Shown piece after piece: positions 58,695 through 64,000 of a stretch of 64,000 bases of DNA; position 1 is the first letter of the stretch; the number at the start of each line of letters is the position of its first letter. The DNA lies in contig NZ_AP014924.1 in the NCBI RefSeq assembly GCF_001544015.1, forward strand, positions 310,001 through 374,000, given 5' to 3'. The DNA comes from Limnochorda pilosa. GTDB lineage: Bacteria > Bacillota > Limnochordia > Limnochordales > Limnochordaceae. Below the pieces are notes generated by a model that did not search any database, was not told where the DNA came from, and saw nothing but the letters and a program-made list of their open reading frames with translations. The position numbers were made by a program, and so were the translations under genes.

Positions 58695-59750
58695 TCATCT
58701 GACAGTGACGGGTACGGACGCCCCATCCAGAACCCGTCCGATCACCTGGGCTTCCTCAATGCCCCGCTCTCTCAGGGCGGCCAGGAGGCCTTGGGTCCTT
58801 TCCGGGCGCACCGCCAGCAGGAGGCCGCCTGAGGTCATGGCGTCGACCAGGACGATGCGGAGGAGTCCGTCCACCCGGGCATCGAAGGCCACCTTGTCCC
58901 TCAGGTACTGCTGATTCGCCCAGGTGCCGCCGGGGACGAAGCCGCGGCGGGCCAGTTCCTCCACATGGGGCAGGAGGGGTACGGCCTCCGCCGACACCTC
59001 CGCGGCCACGCCGCTGGCGGTCACCATCTCGTAGAGGTGGCCCAGCAGGCCGAAGCCCGTCACATCGGTGCACGCATCGACCCCCACGGCCAGGGCCGCC
59101 TCCGAGGCTGCGCGGTTCAGGCTGGTCATGGCCTTCACTGCGGCCTCCTCCGCCTCGGGCGGGCATCCGTCCCGCTTGACGGCCGTGGAGATCAACCCTG
59201 TGCCGATGGGCTTGGTAAGCACCAGATCGTCCCCGGGACGGGCCCCGCCGTTGCTGAGGAAGTGCTCCGGCGAGACCAGCCCGGTGACGGCCAGGCCGAA
59301 CTTGGGCTCAGGGTCGTCGATGGTATGCCCGCCCACCAGGGCGCACTCCGCCTCCCGGAGCACGTCCGCCCCCCCGGTCATGATGGCCTTCAGCACGTCC
59401 AGGGGGAGCTTGGAGATAGGGAACCCGACCAGCGCCAGGGCGGTCAGGGGTCGGCCCCCCATCGCGTAGACGTCGCTCAGGGCATTGGCGGCGGCGATGC
59501 GCCCGAACAGGTCGGGGTCATCCACGATGGGGGTGAAAAAGTCGACGGTCTGAACGAGCGCGCGCGTCTCGTCGAGGCGATAGACGGCGGCGTCGTCCAT
59601 CATCTCGTTCCCCACCAGCAGGTTCGGATCGGCCAGCCGGGGCAGGCCTCGCAGGACCTGGACCAGGTCCTCAGGGTTCAGCTTGGAGGCTCAGCCGGCC
59701 TTGGAGCTCATCTGGGTGAGACGCACGGGAGTGCCTGCCAGGGGATCCAC
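58695..59750 (-). CDS. selD: Selenide, water dikinase SelD, itself a selenoprotein (in-frame TGA = Sec)
   Basis: SelD makes selenophosphate, the selenium donor for Sec-tRNA, from selenide and ATP. Read from GTG 59750 (or GTG 59726) the N-terminus is RLTQMSSKAG, then TGA at 59693-59691, then ASKLNPEDL. The TGA falls exactly at the catalytic Cys17 position of E. coli SelD (SGCGCK context), and the essential Lys is three residues later as in E. coli. With the TGA read as Sec the protein has 351 residues, close to the usual 347. Downstream are NEMMDDAAVYRL (metal and ATP Asp), DPDLFGRIAAANALSDVYAMG and TDVTGFGLLGH. A perfect 7-bp hairpin follows the TGA. A reading that stops at the TGA would begin at ATG 59615 and lose the active site. 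Confidence 0.93.
59654..59693 (-). promoter_or_regulatory. Bacterial SECIS element in selD
   Basis: The TGA (59693-59691) is followed, after 20 bases, by a perfect 7-bp stem GGACCTG/CAGGTCC with loop GTC (59670-59654). A loop that begins with G, some 27 bases after the UGA, matches the spacing and apical-G rule for SelB-bound hairpins. Confidence 0.75.
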
Positions 59751-59944: not shown

Positions 59945-61693
59945 CTAGCGCCACTTGTCCACGAGCACCGATACCGGCGGTGCAAACTGGCCATCCCAGT
60001 ACTGGGAGTGCTTGCCAGGCCCGCCGACCACCGCGATGTGGATACTCTCAGGCGCGTCCATCGGCGGTACCGGCGTTTCGTCGCTTACCGCGCCCCACTC
60101 CTGCGGTGGGTCGCAGGTGAAAGGTGGCGCTGACTTGCCTCCCGGCTTTCCGGGATAGAGACGATATGGGTAACGTGCGTATTCCCATAGACCCCGCCGG
60201 ATGTCGTCCTTTCCCCATCCGTCATGCGCGATGGTCGCCGCGTGCTCCGGCGTCAACAGCAAGAAGCCATCGACATCCCGCAGGCACCCCAGGCCGGCCC
60301 GCTGCCCGGCCACGGTCACCGCCAGATTCTCCACCAGGTCCCTGGCATGGGTGCTGGAATGGTCCGAGTTGTTTCCTGGAGGTGAGCCGCCCGCCACAGT
60401 CACGACACTGTCGGCCGCCATGAAGCCCATCTCGACGTGATACGGCTGCCATGGGTTGGCTTCCTCGTTTTCCCCGACCACCGTGGCTACGATATTGCCG
60501 GCCCAACCTTGGTCGGTCTTGTCTGGATCAGGCGCCTTCGATCCGCCAACGACGTCGCCCAACAGGTTGATGAAGTACCCAACGCATACGTTGGTCAGAT
60601 GCCCCCCGCCGGCTGCGCCAGCGCCAGAGGCCACCCCGACTTCGTGACGAATTGGGCCATTCACCAGCACCAGCGGCGCGACCGGGTGGGTGGTGGTCGT
60701 CTGCGCCCGCCAGTTGTACTCGGGCGAGGCCAGCGCTTCGACGACGGCCAGCAGGAGCGGCATGTGCTCCGGCGTGCAACCGGCCATGACACCAAGGGCC
60801 GCAACCAGTTCGACTGTGAGAGTACCCATTCGGGGTGGAACGCCGTCCCACACTACCTCGCTCGCCGCGTGACTGGTGCCCGTGAGCATCTCCTGGACGC
60901 GGTCTACGGTAGGAGGTACGATGGGAAGACCCAGCGACCATCCCTGGTTGAGGAAGAGCTCATTTACCTGGGCATAGGTTCCGCGGAACTCGAACACGTC
61001 GGCCGGGTACGGAGGCTTCCCCAGATCAGGGATCTCCGTACGACTCGGACGCCAGCAGGTAGCTGTTTTCAGAATCTCCGGGAATGCTGCATCCGCCTTC
61101 TCCACGACTTCGTCCTCGGTGATCATGCCCACAGGGTGCGGGACCATGACGAACGCCATGTCAGGTGCCCCCATGCTTACCATGGTGGCCCTTGCCAGAT
61201 CGATGAACTCCGATGTCGCGATGGTAACGGTCGGGATGCCCCTCTTCTCGACAGCTAGCTGGTCACCGACCAGCCATGAGGTGCAAGACCCTCAATCGCA
61301 CTGCGAGCCGATCACGATATCCGGATGATAGCGTGCAATGATGTCTGCCTTTCGTTCAGCATCGGCGTCTCCGGCACTCTGCGGTACGGTACTCGGCTCT
61401 ACTTCGTAAAACTTGATGATGTTGACGCCCTCCACATTCTCTTCCAGTAACTCGGCGATACGGTCGAGGAACAGGTTGCCGTTGGGCTTACCGTTCCACT
61501 TGAGTCCCACGGTCTTGCCTTCCAGTGTGTCGATTCGTTCTGCGATGTTCACCGGTTCGATGGCTACAACGCCCTCTGGGTTCACGAGTTGCCATGTCAT
61601 CACGTTCGACTGAGCACCTGCAACTCCACCGGCCAATAGCATTGCGCCTGCGGCCGTGAGCACTCCGAGCCCAACGACTTTTGTGACGTTCAT
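59945..61693 (-). CDS. UGSC-family selenoprotein fused to a second uncharacterised domain, with signal peptide
   Basis: Read through TGA 61294-61292 this is a 582-residue protein with Sec134 in CDUGSC (Cys132, Sec134, Cys137). ATG 61693 follows GAGGAGG. Residues 1-27 form a signal peptide (core VVGLGVLTAAGAMLLAGG, AxA-type site). Residues about 32-190 match the UGSC family as I know it: LVNPEGVVAIEP, LEGKTVGLKWNGKPNGNLFLD, HPDIVIGSQCDUGSC, RGIPTVTIATSEF and MAFVMVPHPVG. The remainder (about 195-582; QGWSLGLPIVPPTVDRV, VMAGCTPEHMPLLLAVVEAL, THPVAPLVLVNGPI) resembles a family I recall next to UGSC genes elsewhere, function unknown. U-x-x-C suggests redox chemistry; that is inference. A 9-bp SECIS-like stem follows the TGA, and selD, selC and selB are neighbours. 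Confidence 0.9.
61256..61294 (-). promoter_or_regulatory. Bacterial SECIS element in the UGSC gene
   Basis: The TGA is followed after 15 bases by a 9-bp stem TGGCTGGTC/GACCAGCTA (one G-U pair) capped by loop GGT (stem 61276-61256). The loop starts with G, 24 bases after the UGA, well within the range known for SelB recognition. Confidence 0.8.
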
Positions 61694-61757
61694 CACAAAC
61701 CTCCTCACGGTGGAATGCGCATCGGGTCGTGCACGTGACCACAGAATCCGTAACCAC

Positions 61758-61779
61758 GGAATCACTATGGAATCACTAT
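61758..61779. repeat. Abutting 11-bp direct repeats over the UGSC promoter
   Basis: GGAATCACTAT occurs twice in direct succession (61758-61768 and 61769-61779), a one-helical-turn period. On the minus strand they overlap the -10 box and likely start site of the UGSC gene, so they are a candidate operator. Confidence 0.6.
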
Positions 61780-61804
61780 AGCGGAAGAACCCTCCAGCCA
61801 GCAA
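61775..61804 (-). promoter_or_regulatory. Sigma-70-type promoter of the UGSC gene
   Basis: Minus strand: TTGCTG (61804-61799), 18-base spacer, TATAGT (61780-61775; 5 of 6 match TATAAT). The expected start site is near 61767, leaving a leader of about 75 bases before ATG 61693. Confidence 0.55.
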
Positions 61805-62378
61805 TGACAGGGCGATGGCACAGTGGTTGCCGGTCGATGACACGACTCTCGGGGTCCGTGAAGTTTCGCCGAGCCTTCGGCGCGGGCGTTGCCTTCATGG
61901 ATCCTTCCGCCATCGCTCCGGATCGCTTCGAGCCGCTGCTTCGGGGTGCGCAGGCAGGTACGTGTGTCGAGAGGGTGAGGAATCTAGCGCATGTGCGCGC
62001 AAAGCGGCCGTCATCTGTGGGCAAGCCAAATGCAACGGTGCGGTAATTGGAAGATTGAGGGTGCTGCGCTATACTCGCCACGCACGCGCGATGGCGGAAT
62101 GCCACTTGTGAAGAATAGAACGTCGAGTCAGCAAGAGAGCGTCCATTCAAGAGAGCGTGCAGGAGGGCAACGATGACCGTCGGGTAGCGCCAGGGTTTGG
62201 ATGAGCCCGGGGCAGCTGCTAGGAATGGGGGTCAGCTCGATCCGGTGGATAGGCGTCCGAGTCCGGTGAACCCCCGGGGGGAACGTTGGCGTGCATGGGG
62301 CGGGGAAGCACCGTCATGTCGCTGATCATGACTCGAACAACCATCATCCTGGCTTAAGAGAAGGAGTGGCGAACCAGC
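61805..62378. other. Intergenic region between the divergent UGSC and UshA-like genes
   Basis: About 570 bases, no gene seen. It contains two direct repeats AAGAGAGCGT at 62133-62142 and 62149-62158 (16-bp period) and a small reading frame after GCAGGAGGG that stops after four codons. It should hold the promoter for the plus-strand gene at 62379. Confidence 0.5.
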
Positions 62379-63338
62379 GTGGACGCTCGTCCGTTATCCA
62401 GTAGATCATGGCTGGCGGGTCGTCGGGGTATGGCCGTCCTCTCGGTTGCACTCTGTCTCCTGGCGTTTCCGGAGCCGGATGCTGGGGCTCAGGGAGCGGT
62501 GCTTGTCGGGACAGTGGCCGTCGGAGGACAGGTGGAACCGTATCAAAGTATGTCTGGTGACGAGCTCGGTGGGTTGGCCCACCGTATCGGGTACCTGAAT
62601 GCGCTCGCGAACGCGGGTTCGAAGCCTCTCTTCGTCGACGCGGGGGGCGGGTTCTTTGCGGATGCAACAGTGGCCCAACTCACGCCCGACCCGTCCATCA
62701 TGACGGCCATGTTCATCGCGAAGATGTACGAGGAGATGCGAGCGGTGGCCGTCAATGTGGGACCCTCGGACTTGGCGTTCGGGCTTGACTTCTTGGAGGA
62801 GCTCGTGGCCACCTACGAGACGCCGTTCGTTTCGGCCAACCTGACGTCGACGTCAGGGACCGCTGTCTTCGATCCTTATCGGATGGTTTCCGTGGACGGT
62901 GTCAACGTCCTCGTGACCGGACTGTGGACCAGCACGGAAGGGTCAGCGATTTCGCGGGCCACGGGCTACCAGGCCGTGGTGCAAGATCCTGCTCGGGCAC
63001 TGCGGTCTGTCATCCAGTCGGCAGGAGGACAGGCGGACTGGATCGTTCTCATGTCACAACTGTCACCCAGCGAGGAGCTCTCGATCGCGCAGGCGTTTCC
63101 CACCGTTGACCTCATCCTGAGCGCACCGAGTGGCGGGAGCGATCCGGGTGAGGAGTCCGTCGGCGACGTCAGGATCCTCAGGATTCCACCTCGGGGCGGC
63201 GCCGTCGGTACCTTCGATCTGGAAGAGGAGCGCGGCGAGATCGTATGGCTGGATACAGCCGAGGTTGCCGCGGACCCGGAGTCGGCGCGTACCGTCGAGG
63301 AATTCCTGGTGGAGCTCCACGAGAAGTGCGGGTGTTGA
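62379..63338 (+). CDS. Exported UshA/5'-nucleotidase-like protein with degenerate metal site and C-terminal CxC
   Basis: 319 residues. After a signal peptide (MAVLSVALCLLAFPEPDAGAQ; GTG 62379 or ATG 62430 start) comes a calcineurin-type phosphoesterase fold: GGLAHRIGYLNAL, LFVDAGGGFFAD, MRAVAVNVGPSDLAFGLDFL, TPFVSANLTSTSG and VLVTGLWTS. The metal-binding residues of active enzymes (N-D-x-H-G, D-A-G-D, G-N-H-E/D) are not conserved: TVAVGG, DAGG and GPSD stand in their places. The protein ends E-K-C-G-C. I recall related proteins grouped as UshA-like (seleno)proteins, which fits its place beside tRNA-Sec; this is from memory and unverified. Probably non-catalytic as a nucleotidase. Confidence 0.65.
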   Translation: MDARPLSSRSWLAGRRGMAVLSVALCLLAFPEPDAGAQGAVLVGTVAVGGQVEPYQSMSGDELGGLAHRIGYLNALANAGSKPLFVDAGGGFFADATVAQLTPDPSIMTAMFIAKMYEEMRAVAVNVGPSDLAFGLDFLEELVATYETPFVSANLTSTSGTAVFDPYRMVSVDGVNVLVTGLWTSTEGSAISRATGYQAVVQDPARALRSVIQSAGGQADWIVLMSQLSPSEELSIAQAFPTVDLILSAPSGGSDPGEESVGDVRILRIPPRGGAVGTFDLEEERGEIVWLDTAEVAADPESARTVEEFLVELHEKCGC

Positions 63339-63375: not shown

Positions 63376-63474
63376 GGAGGTGGATGAGTCCCGGTGGGCT
63401 CCCCGGTCCTCAAAACCGGTGGCGCGCCGCTGCGAGCGGGGCGCGGTGGGTTCGACTCCCACGCACTTCCGCCA
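63376..63474 (+). tRNA. selC: tRNA-Sec (anticodon TCA)
   Basis: A 99-base tRNA with encoded CCA. The acceptor stem is GGAGGTGG/GCACTTCC (8 positions; the eighth is a G-G mismatch), with a 6-bp D stem (GAGTCC/GGGCTC, 4-base loop), 5-bp anticodon stem with loop CCTCAAA and anticodon TCA at 63410-63412, a long variable arm (63420-63445) and a 5-bp T arm (GTGGG/CCCAC, loop TTCGACT), then discriminator G. The 8+5 arrangement, long D stem and long extra arm are diagnostic of bacterial tRNA-Sec. It lies 23 bases upstream of selB and 37 bases downstream of the UshA-like gene. Confidence 0.97.
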
Positions 63475-63497: not shown

Positions 63498-64000
63498 ATG
63501 CAGACTCTGTGCACGGCGGGACACATCGATCATGGAAAGTCCGCCCTCGTGAGGGCGTTGACCGGGATCGATCCCGATCGCCTTCGAGAAGAGAAGGAAC
63601 GGGGCCTGACCATCGATCTCGGATTCGCCTGGCTTACGCTGCCAAGCGGGCGGACGGTGAACGTGATCGACGTCCCTGGACATGAGGATCTCATCAGAAA
63701 CATGCTGGCCGGGGTCAGTGCGGTTGACGCGGTGCTTCTCGTCGTGGCCGCGGACGACGGCGTCATGCCCCAAACGCGGGAGCACCTGGCCATCATGGGC
63801 CTGGCGGGTGTCTCAAGCGGCGTCGTGGCCCTGAACAAGATCGACGTGATGGACGATCAGGAGTGGATCGACCTTGTGGAGGCGGACGTGAAGGAGGCTT
63901 TAGCCGGTACGCACTTGGCGTCCGCCGAGGTGGTACCGGTGTCGGCCCGCTCGGGCAAGGGTCTGGAGCGCCTTCGCGCGACCCTTGACGAGACGCTCGC
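63498..64000 (+). CDS. selB: Selenocysteine-specific elongation factor SelB, N-terminal part
   Basis: ATG 63498 opens a frame that runs off the window, with 167 complete codons visible. The GTPase domain has G1 AGHIDHGKSALVRALTG, the switch-I segment EEKERGLTIDLGFAWL (SelB-type I-D-L-G-F), G3 DVPGHEDLIRNMLAGV, G4 NKID and G5 VSARSGKG. SelB brings Sec-tRNA to UGA codons that carry a SECIS hairpin, which its C-terminal winged helices (not visible here) recognise. Its position directly after tRNA-Sec, with Sec-encoding genes beside it, confirms a working selenocysteine system. Confidence 0.96.
   Translation, partial: MQTLCTAGHIDHGKSALVRALTGIDPDRLREEKERGLTIDLGFAWLTLPSGRTVNVIDVPGHEDLIRNMLAGVSAVDAVLLVVAADDGVMPQTREHLAIMGLAGVSSGVVALNKIDVMDDQEWIDLVEADVKEALAGTHLASAEVVPVSARSGKGLERLRATLDETL

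Follow-up and report, generated by a model that had tools for sequence, protein, structure and literature searches.

On the minus strand of the analysed DNA two open reading frames of equal phase are separated by a TGA, which raises the question whether this triplet ends a protein or encodes selenocysteine (Sec) within a longer one, and what such a protein might do. The initial annotation had proposed a single selenoprotein gene of the UGSC family. The window, i.e. the whole stretch of 64,000 nucleotides that was analysed, corresponds to G000:C1:310001-374000; L-numbers denote related loci or further loci of the same genome. The following features were assigned to the gene:

59945..61693, minus strand: UGSC family selenoprotein gene, 582 aa with TGA read as U (PF24696, NF041046)
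61700..61706, minus strand: Shine-Dalgarno-like GAGGAGG, 6 nt upstream of the ATG
61610..61693, minus strand: predicted signal peptide, approximately residues 1-28 (MNVTKVVGLGVLTAAGAMLLAGGVAGAQ), from a hydrophobicity scan
61061..61588, minus strand: UGSC domain, residues 36-211, Rossmann-like alpha/beta by profiles and model
61292..61294, minus strand: predicted Sec codon TGA, residue 134, motif CDUGSC; relatives carry TGA or Cys at the same column
61256..61276, minus strand: SECIS-like hairpin downstream of the TGA, 9 bp stem and GGU loop, from folding z-scores
59948..61000, minus strand: C-terminal domain, residues 232-582, without Pfam family in profile and fold searches

Reading frame, TGA codon and selenium genes

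From the ATG at 61693-61691 to the TAG at 59947-59945 the frame is interrupted only once, by the TGA at codon 134, and yields 582 residues when read through, so that the coordinates and the common phase given in the initial annotation were reproduced. The TGA is embedded in Gln-Cys-Asp-TGA-Gly-Ser-Cys-Thr, in which CDUGSC represents residues 132-137. Using translation table 11, two minus-strand ORFs of equal phase were called (61292-61843 and 59945-61183), the latter with an internal codon as its start, midway through the UGSC domain; standard gene calling thus splits the gene as had been predicted. Alignment of the read-through product to the UGSC family, suggested earlier as a check, gave matches above the cut-off for both PF24696 (137.1 bits, cut-off 25) and NF041046 (134.1 bits, cut-off 125). 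The PF24696 match spans the TGA and covers residues 36-211, in agreement with the proposed family conservation on both of its sides. Since the TGA is located inside the domain matched by PF24696, a true stop at this position would truncate the UGSC domain.

Relatives of the gene were detected at 55 named loci with an alignment query, while a one-sequence query of genome contigs returned none of them; no UGSC relatives were found in the viral contigs searched. The relatives belong to Syntrophaceae, Nitrospiraceae, Desulfovibrio, Mailhella, Thermacetogenium and Syntrophaceticus as well as to Chloroflexota/SAR202, betaproteobacteria and Pseudonocardia; the one from the cultured Syntrophaceticus schinkii (L098) shows 45% identity. 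Of 398 genomes of the phylum that were searched, 30 contained matches; many of these matches held exactly one internal TGA, and some of the weakest were GrdB genes. Exactly one TGA, always in a U-G-x-C motif, was present in 69 family stretches from related loci and this genome. A genuine Cys codon occupies the Sec column in L088 (Pseudonocardia, DCGSC) and in L046:2289-2897 (DCGHC), which are homologues of the kind that the initial annotation had named as support for recoding. The Cys of the UxxC motif, Cys137, is invariant (55/55).

Folding of the region behind the TGA was compared with shuffled sequences. The hairpin of this gene reached a z-score of -1.96 against dinucleotide shuffles and of -1.69 (p=0.046) against synonymous shuffles. 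Throughout the family the 45 nt 3' of the TGA folded better than synonymous-codon shuffles (mean z -1.12, n=69), and control positions had a z of -0.25 (Mann-Whitney p=1.3e-7, for sequences that are related and therefore not independent). Because the other three Sec-containing paralogues of this genome gave no significant folding signal individually, the predicted bacterial SECIS element that follows the TGA is regarded as supportive rather than decisive.

Components for Sec synthesis and insertion are encoded on both sides of the gene, and SelA is encoded elsewhere in the genome:

58695..59726, minus strand: selD (selenide, water dikinase), TIGR00476 397 bits; start codon tentative
63376..63474, plus strand: tRNA-Sec, anticodon TCA (ARAGORN; RF01852 69.3 bits)
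63498..64000, plus strand: 5' portion of selB, with SelB winged-helix and barrel domains, running past the window (L012:5498-7462)

selD bears an in-frame Sec codon of its own (59693-59691, minus strand, SSKAGUASKL). Its table-11 ORF begins only at 59615, hence selD would be truncated by standard calling as well, and tools that stop at TGA would miss both the UGSC gene and the N-terminal part of the adjoining selD.

If the TGA were a genuine stop, or had arisen by recent mutation, the locus would encode two proteins or be a pseudogene. This would account for the two ORFs seen when recoding is ignored and for the weak SECIS signal of some paralogues taken singly. It is hardly reconcilable with the fact that dozens of relatives from several phyla share the TGA and others have Cys, with the position of the TGA within the UGSC domain and with the full Sec machinery of the genome, and we consider it extremely improbable. 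By all sequence tests (family alignment, Cys homologues, adjacent Sec genes and SECIS-like hairpin) the TGA at 61294-61292 is a selenocysteine codon, as initially annotated, and the gene product is almost certainly a Sec-containing UGSC family protein.

The gene is a new representative of a known family, whose fusion to the C-terminal domain was already reported in 2008. UGSC was described among the major prokaryotic selenoprotein families in ocean-sampling metagenomes (PMC2398784). The earlier statement that the family is known from marine metagenomes with no function assigned accordingly holds, but according to that paper it is commoner in non-marine samples. The description of the gene as single also holds in part: the two ORFs form one gene, but the genome has four Sec-containing UGSC paralogues, this gene included. 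The other three, together with a paralogue consisting of the C-terminal domain only, are located just past the window (G000:C1:375593-383017; L012:7500-15269). UGSC2 and UGSC3, beyond the right end, have the motifs QCDUGSC and QADUGSC, and in the fourth Sec paralogue CDUGSC is replaced by GGUGGC. L028:617-2410, a relative resembling this fourth paralogue, has the variant Sec motif GGUTACN. The three further Sec paralogues, the Sec codon within selD and the relationship to GrdB described below go beyond the initial annotation.

Relationship of the UGSC domain to GrdB

The UGSC profile retrieved true GrdB genes with E-values of 1e-4 to 1e-3. When the UGSC and GrdB profiles were aligned with hhalign, a probability of 98.2 was obtained (score 72, 175 columns, Sec on Sec); the E-value refers to this single comparison, and ten related sequences underlie the GrdB profile. 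Twenty block-shuffled control profiles reached at most 10.0 (score 20), and the reversed profile gave 0.0. Both families share IE..GIP and PHP.G in this alignment. Independently of the profile comparison, the UGSC-only protein of L015 matched TIGR01917 (glycine reductase selenoprotein B) around its Sec with an E-value of 5.4e-6. GrdE gave an hhalign probability of 1.3 or less against either domain of the protein. At the level of profiles, the UGSC domain thus very probably shares its ancestry with the GrdB domain that bears Sec.

The structure model (pLDDT 92.2, pTM 0.90) folds the UGSC domain into five beta-alpha units, with Sec134 directly preceding helix 135-149 and following strand 126-132. 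The best solved matches of the domain were Rossmann-type folds (Z 9-10.6); thioredoxin was absent among the matches listed for the model, although absence there is not proof. In PMC2398784 a Trx-like fold was guessed for UGSC, and PMC13188914 lists UGSC beside Trx-like proteins. Contrary to this guess, model and profiles point to a GrdB-like alpha/beta domain that is probably not thioredoxin-like.

The likeness extends to GrdB, GrdF and GrdH, the Sec subunits of glycine, sarcosine and betaine reductase (TIGR01917, PF07355), as well as PrdB, with which the pattern D-x-V-I...U-G-x-C-T...E-x-x-G-I-P-x-V...P-H-P-x-G is shared, Sec on Sec. In contrast, the UGSC protein has no counterpart of the approximately 300 residues at the N-terminus of GrdB, and of the motif UxxCxxC (GrdB UGTCTRC) it lacks the third Cys. 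It also carries a different C-terminal domain, is predicted to be exported and is encoded in a genome without GrdE and GrdA. PF07355 matched neither the 582-aa protein nor any other sequence of G000, while G430, G137, G252 and G366 were positive as controls; PF09338 (GrdE/PrdA pyruvoyl proprotein) and PF04723 (GrdA) were likewise absent from G000 and found in the control genomes. The GRDB model PF07355 comprises 347 positions, and its matches in the four controls contain no TGA. These matches end before the Sec codon, so that the Sec domain itself is absent from the model, which is the likely reason why the link to GrdB cannot be seen in Pfam. This link is not stated in PMC13188914 or PMC2398784, the two papers searched, and the GrdB relationship, the export with its partner set and the two-domain logic described below seem to be new.

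C-terminal domain, predicted export and partner genes

For none of the members of a 60-sequence C-terminal alignment was a significant Pfam match found, and a search of the PDB yielded no sequence relative of this domain. Fold matches were weak, the best being a cyclic amide hydrolase with a Foldseek E of 0.04, and Z in VIA did not exceed 6.0; the domain may nonetheless adopt a known fold. A pyruvoyl subunit of the GrdE/PrdA type and a second part of GrdB were considered as identities and rejected (hhalign probabilities 0.1 and 0.0, respectively). A redox Cys as key of the domain was rejected too, C306 being Cys in only 44/60 sequences. Invariant or nearly so are V266, M303, T335, G346, E408, W415, G423 and G557, of which E408 and W415, together with the stretch T332-T335, are likely pocket residues. 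The domain would correspond to the conserved domain 'Unknown_1' of PMC2398784. The UGSC family described there (PF24696, NF041046) agrees with the present gene in its UGSC motif, Sec at U and the probable fusion to Unknown_1; the present case differs in its selenium island, four Sec paralogues, predicted export and complete genome.

In the structure model the signal region forms a helix of low confidence (residues 3-21). Signal-like N-termini were found in 33 of 44 fused stretches, 12 of which stretches have a lipobox, and on all four Sec paralogues of this genome, suggesting that the product is exported. Overall the relatives fall into two classes. Fused, signal-bearing proteins, several of them lipoproteins, prevail in most lineages of anaerobes. 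In SAR202/Dehalococcoidia (L070-L087) the UGSC and C-terminal domains are encoded by two adjacent genes without signal, and the fusions of betaproteobacteria and Pseudonocardia do not have one either. That the two domains are fused in one group and encoded side by side in the other suggests that they act together. At some of the L070-L087 loci, nearby genes were assigned by eye to a thiamine-diphosphate enzyme, a LigB-like dioxygenase and hydrolases.

Near genes of the exported class, MauE/DoxX was found at 11 loci, histidine kinases at 10, rhodanese at 7, Cache sensors at 6 and thioredoxin at 5. The C-domain-only paralogue, thioredoxin/CcdA and sensor kinases also recur near fused exported relatives. 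In the present genome MauE/DoxX does not adjoin the UGSC gene. Beyond the right end of the window the paralogues are accompanied by a rhodanese and by the following genes:

L012:15291-19043 and L013:935-11729: multihaem cytochrome c (weakly ExtM-like), cytochrome b, YedE selenium transporter (TIGR04112, 484 bits), two DMSO/selenate-family reductase-like sets, radical SAM protein

These neighbours could define an island for selenium, sulfur or other chalcogen compounds, in which the UGSC proteins would act outside the cell by binding or reducing selenite, thiosulfate or organic selenium, and YedE would import the product. The continuation of the cluster with rhodanese, the cytochromes, YedE and the two reductase-like sets is in line with such a role. 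The ExtM and DmsA/YnfE matches, however, fell below their respective cut-offs, clustering of YedE with Sec genes may merely reflect the selenium need of the proteins, and the SAR202 relatives are surrounded by unrelated catabolic genes, which makes this role quite improbable.

The thiol-relay proteins among the neighbours fit a different, general function, the main rival to a GrdB-type reaction. As an extracytoplasmic selenol/thiol oxidoreductase, the protein would reduce disulfides, persulfides or peroxides with its UxxC motif, thioredoxin/CcdA, MauE/DoxX and rhodanese serving as its suppliers and the client being bound by the C-terminal domain. The invariant Cys137 (55/55) would suit this role, and PMC13188914 as well as PMC2398784 place UGSC with redox selenoproteins. 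On the other hand, thioredoxin is missing among the matches listed for the model, the profiles tie the domain to GrdB, and the second domain, which is large and conserved and has invariant E408 and W415 and a TT motif, looks more like a place of substrate chemistry than like part of a redox relay. We regard a general oxidoreductase as rather unlikely.

Proposed reaction

In selenoproteins of the GrdB type, a bound small substrate loses its leaving group through attack by the selenol. The homologous domain, the invariant Cys of UxxC, the predicted export and the thiol-relay neighbours together lead us to propose extracytoplasmic reductive C-X cleavage. The best explanation of the locus is one exported selenoprotein, a reductase of the GrdB type that would split a carbon-heteroatom bond, to which we assign a probability of about 0.5; a GrdB-like mechanism of reductive cleavage falls slightly short of an even chance. 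Shared domain homology does not prove a shared reaction. The substrate would be held between the UGSC and C-terminal domains, and the selenolate of Sec134 would attack a polarised carbon and displace the leaving group (amine, halide or other heteroatom). Cys137 of UxxC would then resolve the selenium intermediate, and re-reduction would proceed via an exported thiol relay, for which thioredoxin/CcdA, MauE/DoxX and rhodanese are candidates in the relatives. Since GrdB, GrdE and GrdA are missing from G000, the partners must differ from the classical ones.

GrdB is the glycine-binding, ammonia-releasing subunit (PMC13188914), and GrdB-like FarB was proposed to cleave the C-F bond of fluoroacetate (PMC10838667). 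The FarB/FarE fluoroacetate reductase operon is similar to the present case in that a GrdB-type Sec protein is proposed to act on a C-X bond other than C-N. It differs in that FarB and FarE are true GrdB/GrdE homologues and their activity was assigned via genomics and transcription (PMC10838667). On a more tentative note, UGSC and the C-terminal domain could constitute an extracytoplasmic branch of the glycine reductase superfamily that operates with a membrane thiol relay instead of pyruvoyl subunit and GrdA, cleaves C-heteroatom bonds and possibly serves respiration in anaerobes. UGSC has been without a function since 2008, and the controlled tie to GrdB would replace the thioredoxin-like guess with a specific chemistry. 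Together, the C-domain-only paralogue, MauE/DoxX, rhodanese and the sensor kinases form a conserved set of partner genes that is testable in a cultured organism.

Two fusion homologues, L030:1261-2976 and L033, have neither Sec nor Cys at the motif (GDMGTSPAT and GDMGTSAAT, respectively) and apparently no signal peptide; they possibly represent a non-redox branch.

Within the window, a UshA-like (COG0737-type) ORF at 62379-63338 on the plus strand ends with Cys-Gly-Cys-TGA, 37 nt before the tRNA-Sec gene. It was rejected as a second selenoprotein, as read-through gave no better match and would enter tRNA-Sec. Against NF041198 it scored 135 (cut-off 275) with only half of the profile covered; possibly it is a Cys relative of the UshA-like selenoproteins in shortened form.
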